Shown: positions 33,967 to 63,691 of the stretch, piece after piece
Numbering within the stretch: position 1 is the first letter of the stretch
Layout of the letters: every line of letters begins with the position of its first letter
Assembly: GCF_964204645.1 (NCBI RefSeq)
Contig: NC_134027.1
Span: 8,854,485-8,918,484 of the forward strand
Direction of reading: 5' to 3'
From: Tubulanus polymorphus
Lineage: Eukaryota > Nemertea > Palaeonemertea > Tubulaniformes > Tubulanidae
Length of the DNA stretch: 64,000 nucleotides
Translations under genes and position numbers: made by a program
The notes under the pieces: model-generated
What the model was told of the DNA's origin: nothing
What the model saw: only the letters and a program-made list of their open reading frames with translations
The model's database searches: none

Positions 33967-36900
33967 ATGTCGTACGCCTATCTTTTCAAATACATCATAA
34001 TCGGAGACACGGGTAAATATGCATTCCTCCTTAAAGTTCGTCGCAGAATTTAGTTGATTTGAAGATCGTAAACCGTAAATTTGAGACTGAAAAGTTGGAG
34101 GCCTTCTTCGTCGAATTCTTTCGAACGATGTGCGATGCCAATGCCACTTCTCCCCACAATCCACGCATCCTGAACTCCCTATATTTTTGCTATACCTGCA
34201 TTTGTTTTGAATCTCGGACCTTTCAAGCAAGAAAACCAGTCAACTCGTATGATAATTGATTTAAGTTTCATTCTTCGTCAGAACAACGCTCGAGACTGTG
34301 CTCATGTAGAATAAATTGCTGCTCTCCACACCGCACCTGTAATCCGATTTTAATCCCCAGGGCCCAGTTTCAGGAAAAATTTTAAGCCTAAAACGGTTAA
34401 GTTTGAATTGTTGTCCGCATTGAAAACACGAAGTAACCAATGGCAATTACACCAAAAATTTGAGTTTAACTCTTTCGTGAAACTGGGCCCAGTTGCCACA
34501 AATGTCGATTATGAACAATAAACTATTGAAAATCTTGGATACGTTCTTTTTGCTTGTTATTACATTTATTCGGAGGTGCCTTGATCATAGTCTGTGCTGT
34601 ATTTTATGGAAATAGCAAAAAACTATACCATTTTTCATTTTGAAACTAAGCCTTCAGACTCTGTATAAGTTTGGTAGCAACAAGATAGTTTGAGCAACGC
34701 TCTTTGATTACGTAAAAGTGTGATCGTACTTGATATTTGTATTTCTATCTTTCGCAGGTGTTGGTAAATCATGTTTATTACTACAATTCACAGATAAACG
34801 CTTTCAACCAGTACACGATCTTACTATAGGTAAATATATACAGTGAATCCTTGATCCGAGAGTTGTGTTAGGTTAATTAATGTCTTACGAAAACATGGAG
34901 GGGGGGTCGAGCTTATATAACTACATAGTGGTTAAGGGGATGACAAAAAGAGGTTGAGAAGCATGTTAGGAGCCATTGATGAAACATGATGTCTGCGTTG
35001 GGAGTATAGAGAATCCTACATTAATGTAACAAGAAAGATGAAGTCTGATGAGTTTCCTTTAAGCTTATGATTTAATGATTCGACGTTTCGACTATTAACC
35101 TAATAGTCATCTTTCTGATTAAATGATAGTGTTGGATTCTCAACTTGTTGAAATGCCTAGCGTTGCCATCTGTTCCCGAGTTGTATTTCAGCTAACCGTC
35201 TTTTATGCTCAAATCACGATTACGGTAATGCTACAATGTACTATAGAGGGAGTATAATAATTAGCACTTACAAAATTTTGGATCATTAGATTTTAACGGT
35301 CGCTTCGACCTCTGAATGTAACAATAGATCGGCGACATCTGTTCTCACATCTGTACATGTTTAGCGCATCTGTAATATTGACTTGAAACGAGTTTCAATC
35401 CTGGTTATTTGAGATCGGCTGCTGATTGTCACTCATTTTAGACCATTTACAAAGCACGTTATCATTGACATGCTGATATCAATTAGTTGATTAATAGATC
35501 TATTGATTAAATGACAGTTTGATTCCACGATCTCATCTTGGCTGATGTGAGTCTTCTAGGTAATCAAGAACCACACAAGTTAATACTGCGTTAGATAATG
35601 ATTTCTCCAACTGTCGCTGAAGTTGGCTGAATTTAATGGGGATGCCTACTTAATTGATTATCTATACAATAGTTGCTGAAATTTTGTTGCTTTTGGTATC
35701 AAGTAGTGCTTTGAGTGTGTGTTATTGAAATACCATGTCCAGTCCTGTACTATGTTAGCGTTGCACCACTCCAAGCCACTGGAGAGACATAGGTCAATCT
35801 TGGAGTAATCAGACTGAATTACTCCAAGACAAAAGGAACAATTTGATTGTTGACTAATGTTATCCGGTATTTGGAAATCTGACTTGTTCAAAAGTAATGC
35901 TAGATAAACTGAATTCGAGCTTTACTGTACTGTTAAGGAATTGTATGCCATACTGGACATGACAGAGATTAAAGCCTTATCTGTCTCTATTCCATTATGT
36001 TTGCGTATGTATGTGTGTCTACAGTACATATTGAATGGACGTTTACTCATTGGCTTATTGCTTTTATTTATAATGACTTACAGCATCAAACCAGTGATCT
36101 ATTTTGTATCAATTCAATTTTGACATTTCTATAGCAAAGACCATATTTTTGCCAGGTTACAAAATGTTGATGTTCTTTCTTAGATTTTGCTGCCACTATT
36201 GCATCCTATCTACATATCCAACCTACATAAATCTGTTTCTACCCCTGAAATATTATCATTCGGTGTGATCTTTGTTACCGGGTACCAGTCCAAACCAATA
36301 TGTGATGAGATGCTAGGATGCCAACTCAATTCAGTGATGTCTGTATCATATTTCTCTTTAAATATATTCATAGGTGTAGAATTTGGAGCCCGTATGATTA
36401 CTATTGATGGCAAACAAATCAAATTACAGATTTGGGATACGGTAAGAAATATACGCGGATAGCCTATCTATTTTCATTTTGCTTTTGAGAAAGATTTTCT
36501 CATCATTACGGGCAATTAGTAATCATAATGATAAAGTGATTCAATGCAAGGAGGCTAATTGTTTAGCAAGTTTTACAAAGCGGTTAGATTTGATCATCAT
36601 CATCGCAGTCTGTCTGAAGTGATTTAATCCTGGAATGTTTATTTTTAGGCTGGACAGGAATCATTTCGATCAATTACGAGATCTTATTACAGAGGAGCTG
36701 CTGGTGCTTTGCTCGTCTATGATATTACGAGGTAACGTAATGTTTTACTCGTTGAGGCAATTCATTTCATTGATCTCCATACAGGACATTGACTGTATTT
36801 CCTCGATTGATTATTCGGTCTAAAAAGATGCAATTTTGTTAAGTTTCTTGCGTTTAATCGTAGCTGTAAATGGTGTATGGAATTTTATTTTTCTATCTAG

Positions 36901-63691: not shown

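Follow-up and report, generated by a model that had tools for sequence, protein, structure and literature searches.

RAB2 is a secretory-pathway GTPase and CHD proteins are ATP-driven nucleosome remodellers, among which CHD7 and CHD8 have been linked to disease (CHARGE syndrome; autism). Irimia and others have reportedly described ancient microsyntenic pairs in metazoans as well as genomic regulatory blocks, and snoRNAs, the third element considered here, are generally regarded as mobile. The closest described systems are the human pairs RAB2A–CHD7 (8q12) and RAB2B–CHD8 (14q11.2), which the first-pass annotation of the present sequence gave as neighbours with RAB2 upstream on the same strand. 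We likewise take both human pairs to be same-strand. Fly Rab2 and kismet presumably occupy separate chromosome arms, and the pair is therefore not universal. The rest of the human arrangement can be found in print, with RAB2A upstream of CHD7 and RAB2B either beside CHD8 or one gene away from it.

One report has RAB2A adjoining CHD7 on the upstream side and describes, with CHARGE syndrome, a 184-kb deletion that takes RAB2A along with the adjoining promoter region of CHD7, its 5' UTR and its untranslated exon 1 while sparing the start codon (PMC4559162). Around the second pair, two papers give slightly different orders: one lists SUPT16H, CHD8, RAB2B, TOX4, METTL3 and SALL2 (PMC10340279), and the other puts TOX4 between CHD8 and RAB2B (PMC6537423). 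Two further papers place "RAB2B" at 8q12 (PMC10057161, PMC4176195), where RAB2A was probably meant. Chicken CHD9, CHD6 and CHD7 are presented as paralogues from early vertebrate duplication in PMC7471279, and CHD8 is given as the host gene of human SNORD8 (mgU6-53) and SNORD9 (mgU6-53B) in PMC6023535 and PMC6466398.

The locus described here probably adds a further case to a known class, that of ancient microsynteny involving a snoRNA host gene. It resembles the ancient metazoan microsyntenic pairs in that neighbours, one of them a developmental regulator, appear to have been kept for a very long time. We consider it very probable that an ancient neighbourhood survives here in unduplicated form, with RAB2 directly upstream of, and on one strand with, a single CHD6-9 gene hosting a U6-A53 guide snoRNA.

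The window, meaning the whole 64,000-nucleotide stretch that was analysed, corresponds to C3:8854485–8918484. The genome comprises 77 contigs totalling 267.8 Mb, of which C3 makes up 10.4%. Contig sizes suggest 12 chromosomes (C1–C11 each reach beyond 11 Mb and C12 measures 11.5 Mb, against 0.24 Mb for C13). The genes and elements around the pair are as follows, in window positions unless a contig is named.

27055–29118, + strand: NDUFB9, located with a human probe
30767–33230, − strand: SNX16; low end approximate, from open frames; human probe matches at 31979–32314
33967–37906, + strand: RAB2 coding region, 8 exons with GT-AG junctions, 212 aa
33967–34012, 34758–34829, 36374–36441 and 36649–36731, + strand: RAB2 exons 1–4
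36901–36993, 37285–37396, 37485–37553 and 37811–37906, + strand: RAB2 exons 5–8
38377–38382, + strand: AATAAA, likely RAB2 polyadenylation signal, from the motif only
38383–41250: intergenic stretch between RAB2 and CHD, end inferred
41250–41361, + strand: possible untranslated first CHD exon, from splice motifs only, its start a guess
42042–44177, + strand: first coding exon of CHD, long and Gln-rich
42042 to past the window end (64000), reaching about C3:8920945, + strand: CHD6-9 type chromatin remodeller, from its start codon

RAB2 lies directly upstream of the CHD6-9 gene in the same orientation, as the first-pass annotation had proposed, with ATG codons at 33967 and 42042, both on the + strand, and 4.1 kb between the RAB2 stop codon and the CHD start codon. 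The CHD gene does not end at 63691, the limit of the annotated stretch: it runs on beyond the window, the last of its long coding frames finishing near C3:8920945, some 2.5 kb downstream of the window end. Like the human pairs, the locus has RAB2 adjoining a CHD6-9 gene; it differs from them in holding a single, tightly spaced copy of each (4.1 kb) and in having SNX16, not CA8 or TOX4, on the other side of RAB2. The RAB2–CHD pair was not stated in the titles or abstract starts that a text search of open-licence PMC papers returned.

The RAB2 reading frame starts exactly at 33967 and stops at 37904–37906. Among solved structures the protein is closest to Rab-2A (364 bits), to the chain GH01619p, which we take to be fly Rab2 (362.5 bits), and to Rab-2B (359.7 bits), with Rab-14 (261 bits) and Rab4A (226 bits) farther off over the G domain. 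The protein ends in GGCC, a double cysteine that presumably serves in prenylation. When the whole genome was searched with RAB2 (144 of 144 candidates scored), exons at the window locus matched at 74–97% identity and covered residues 6–212, and the next-nearest gene, on C7 and by our assumption RAB14-like, reached 59–74% in three pieces. A 26-residue piece on C1 is 85% identical to RAB2, but the pieces beside it reach only 49–56%. Going by these matches, the search shows one canonical RAB2 in the genome. We also observed a divergent, nearly intronless RAB2-like stretch at C1:28058826–28059617 (42–54% identity over residues 3–212, in two pieces), which is perhaps an old retrogene.

Within the window the CHD gene has 30 anchored coding blocks. 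The protein model is provisional, in that the last two junctions could not be solved in frame and were bridged at the anchors, and another two have poor scores; it carries two chromodomains (Chromo in two stretches) ahead of SNF2 (SNF2-rel_dom) and Helicase_C domains. Two BRK domains follow just past the window end, at C3:8919367–8919483 and 8919773–8919853. The first BRK frame, the only one compared, matches CHD7 (55.5 bits) and CHD8 (41.9 bits) above BRG1 (32.2 bits), and we assigned the gene to CHD6-9 because its BRK domain is closer to CHD7 and CHD8 than to BRG1. An identity as CHD1 or CHD3-5 was considered, since CHD4 and CHD1 head the PDB matches with about 520 bits, but the BRK domain decides for CHD6-9; of the 52 PDB sequences listed with E no higher than 1e-80, none is a chain named CHD6-9. 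In the SANT/SLIDE region the best solved match is weak (Chromo domain-containing protein 1, E 0.057).

A genome search with the CHD helicase core (78 of 87 candidates scored) covered the whole query at the window locus with 82–97% identity, and other SNF2 genes reached at most 68% apart from one piece, a 32-residue stretch at 11.2 Mb on C3 that is 81% identical and whose neighbours reach 38–53%. With 150 of 397 candidates scored, the genome gave four BRK matches, two of them belonging to the CHD gene of the window. The others were examined as possible second CHD6-9 genes and rejected: the match on C2 reads by eye like Brahma/SMARCA4, and that on C8 has adjoining frames without CHD features that look DIDO/PHF3-like, by eye only. 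Judged from these sequence matches, the genome shows a single BRK-bearing CHD6-9 gene. Such single copies of RAB2 and CHD6-9 are what would be expected in the absence of the vertebrate duplications; by this, by its genome size and by the compactness of its genes, the animal is probably not a vertebrate. Linked families duplicate together, as with CHD9, CHD6 and CHD7 (PMC7471279) among the vertebrate CHD6/7/8/9 paralogues; here the genome holds a single unduplicated set.

Three matches to the snoU6-53 family lie within introns of the CHD gene.

51589–51694, + strand: snoU6-53 copy 1, in CHD intron 51516–51773; C/D box RNA with a guide to U6 A53
53433–53531, + strand: snoU6-53 copy 2, with one guide mismatch, in CHD intron 53386–53927
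53679–53777, + strand: snoU6-53 copy 3, in CHD intron 53386–53927

All three exceed the RF00377 gathering cut-off of 36 bits (49.6, 45.5 and 45.3 bits, respectively), and copies 2 and 3 are tandem duplicates with 90% identity. Set against human U6 letters, their guides pair around A53 at 11, 10 and 11 of 12 positions, respectively. The mismatch in the guide core of copy 2 is a C for G, and the guide is followed by CCGA in copies 2 and 3 and by CUGA in copy 1 and the Rfam consensus. Beyond these copies, no further snoU6-53 was found in a whole-genome family search in which 55 of 11556 candidates were scored. The RNAs would be spliced out with the CHD introns and, as predicted from the guide sequence, should direct 2'-O-methylation of U6 at A53. 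They agree with human SNORD8 and SNORD9 in RNA type (RF00377), in host gene family and in the U6 A53 guide, and differ in numbering three copies in two introns, with one tandem duplicate pair and one guide mismatch. Among the titles listed for open-licence PMC papers, none concerned a snoU6-53 host outside vertebrates.

The snoU6-53 genes provide a second, independent marker of descent, which is shared with CHD8 and was absent from the first-pass annotation. The CHD coding span is only 9e-5 of the genome, so snoU6-53 is not likely to have come to lie in this host family twice by chance.

Further evidence comes from six human neighbours of the pair. On C3 we found relatives of TOX (27.08 Mb), METTL3 (7.49 Mb), SALL (0.05 Mb; 150 of 925 candidates scored) and SPT16, that is SUPT16H (5.77 Mb; a single match of 60.9 bits that runs over stops), and the relatives of EYA (C2) and ASPH (C8) were not on C3. 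C3 thus holds four of the six tested human-neighbour genes (binomial 0.0015) and all four tested neighbours of CHD8/RAB2B at 14q11.2, namely SUPT16H, TOX4, METTL3 and SALL2 (binomial 0.00012); TOX and SPT16 were chosen before any result and the others as results came, so both values are only guides. These neighbours lie 1.4 to 18 Mb from RAB2–CHD and are scattered over 27 Mb, and probes for TOX, CA8, METTL3, SUPT16H, ASPH and CLVS1 found no match within 100 kb on either side. Only the RAB2–CHD adjacency itself is tight. The location of SNX16 and NDUFB9 on human 8q, cited earlier as strengthening the case for an old linkage block, adds little: among the tested genes it is 14q11.2 that matches C3, and the sole tested 8q12 gene, ASPH, is on C8. 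We therefore dropped 8q linkage as the main support in favour of the 14q11.2 set.

A convergent origin, in which RAB2 and CHD came together separately in this lineage and in the stem of the vertebrates, was also weighed. The presumably unlinked fly genes fit such convergence. With 20,000 genes assumed, however, the chance that one named pair stands side by side with this order and a shared strand is about 2.5e-5 (about 7e-4 for any of the seven pairs in the window also being adjacent in human), and the same type of snoRNA in the same host family and four neighbours on a shared chromosome argue against it as well, leaving convergence highly improbable.

An ancestral RAB2–CHD[snoU6-53] locus that existed before the vertebrate duplications is well supported. 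The proposal of the first-pass annotation that one ancestral RAB2–CHD pair was doubled with the vertebrate genome gains from the single copies found here, the human pairs in print, the intronic snoRNA and the shared chromosome of four out of four neighbours, and we infer descent from one ancestral locus with co-inheritance through the duplications. The early vertebrate whole-genome duplications would have copied the RAB2–CHD[snoU6-53] neighbourhood, after which two copies would have kept RAB2 (RAB2A–CHD7 and RAB2B–CHD8, the snoRNA being reported from CHD8) and the CHD6 and CHD9 copies presumably lost it. The intronic snoRNA suggests that a U6-modifying RNA was already hosted by this gene family ahead of the vertebrate duplications and has stayed with it.

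What may have held the two genes together is a separate matter, on which the stretch between them and the surrounding genes bear. Across the 4.05 kb from the RAB2 stop codon to the acceptor before the first CHD coding exon, no Pfam domain was found in six frames at E 0.1. A miRNA between the genes was considered and rejected, there being seven sub-threshold model matches, six on an AT repeat and one at 41920–41999. The putative untranslated CHD exon at 41250–41361 is followed by a donor (GTATGT at 41362), with an acceptor AG at 41959–41960; human CHD7 has an untranslated first exon, and RAB2A upstream of it (PMC4559162). CpG observed/expected ratios reach 1.92 at 33501–34000, between SNX16 and RAB2, and 1.49–1.68 at 40501–41500, before CHD, compared with 0.36–1.35 per 500-base step elsewhere; the ratio alone is a weak promoter sign because 43501–44000, inside the Gln-rich CHD exon, also scores high (1.66). 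The interval 40501–41500 is likely the CHD promoter, and each of the two genes appears to have a promoter of its own. The shared regulatory DNA suggested in the first-pass annotation gains no support here. SNX16 stands head-to-head with RAB2, with about 0.74 kb between the start codons (33230–33967), and this arrangement, together with the seemingly separate promoters, speaks against RAB2 and CHD sharing a transcript or a promoter.

Farther upstream on the same contig are a WNT5 gene at C3:8832145–8832639 (− strand; 221 bits to Wnt-5a versus 178 for Wnt-3) and an F-box/LRR gene at C3:8849390–8850670 (+ strand), whose best solved match is F-box/LRR-repeat protein 2 and which we named FBXL14-like by assumption. 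Human WNT5B and FBXL14 are neighbours, and WNT5 and the FBXL14-like gene are probably a second ancient neighbour pair.

The pair may be ancestral and yet held by nothing, as one of many pairs that survive a slow decay of gene order without shared control. A second probable ancient pair on the same contig (WNT5 and FBXL14-like, about 17 kb apart and 38–56 kb upstream of RAB2), the apparently separate promoters of RAB2 and CHD in the CpG profile and the apparent head-to-head tie of RAB2 to SNX16 rather than to CHD all point in this direction, but the adjacency survives in three copies (the one here and, from the papers, two in human) while the other tested CHD8 neighbours are scattered over 27 Mb. 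Slow decay is a serious possibility, in our judgement only just short of probable.

The threefold presence of the RAB2–CHD order would also be expected if cis-regulatory constraint kept the pair, RAB2 being a bystander that carries sequence needed by a dosage-sensitive CHD gene. The 184-kb RAB2A/CHD7-promoter deletion reported with CHARGE syndrome fits this reading, but as described it also removes the CHD7 promoter region and so does not demonstrate control from RAB2 (PMC4559162). The intergenic stretch here, of about 3–4 kb, is moreover short for a long-range landscape, and we regard such constraint as possible but on the doubtful side. Cis-regulatory sequence for CHD could lie in or around RAB2, and slow background loss of gene order would account for the adjacency as readily.

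A stronger form, in which RAB2–CHD[snoU6-53] is a three-part unit inherited since before the vertebrate duplications, possibly from the bilaterian ancestor, and held together because RAB2 or its surroundings contain regulatory sequence for CHD, strikes us as rather unlikely. Were it true, the upstream neighbour RAB2 would belong to the functional CHD7/CHD8 landscape. If the neighbourhood is ancestral, as we favour, compact genomes such as this one would narrow the hunt for old CHD control sequence down to 3–4 kb and the RAB2 introns.

Several other features were observed in and near the window. The first coding intron of CHD holds a 145-bp tandem repeat (2.9 copies, 44937–45362), and the first gene recognised downstream of CHD, among long open frames only, encodes a SEFIR domain and is IL-17 receptor-like (+ strand). 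A CTCTCC array of 76.5 perfect copies spans 6980–7438, with open frames of 170–256 aa over it in all six frames. A Galactosyltransferase-domain gene (PF01762) occupies one long open frame at 18230–19852 (+ strand) and is followed by a probable VPS9-domain gene at about 21.4–25 kb (+ strand; E 0.00032, below the Pfam cut-off), perhaps VPS9D1-like. An ISCA2-like iron-sulphur gene at 26425–26964 (− strand) is head-to-head with NDUFB9, with about 150 bp between the likely start codons, and the two mitochondrial genes perhaps share a promoter.
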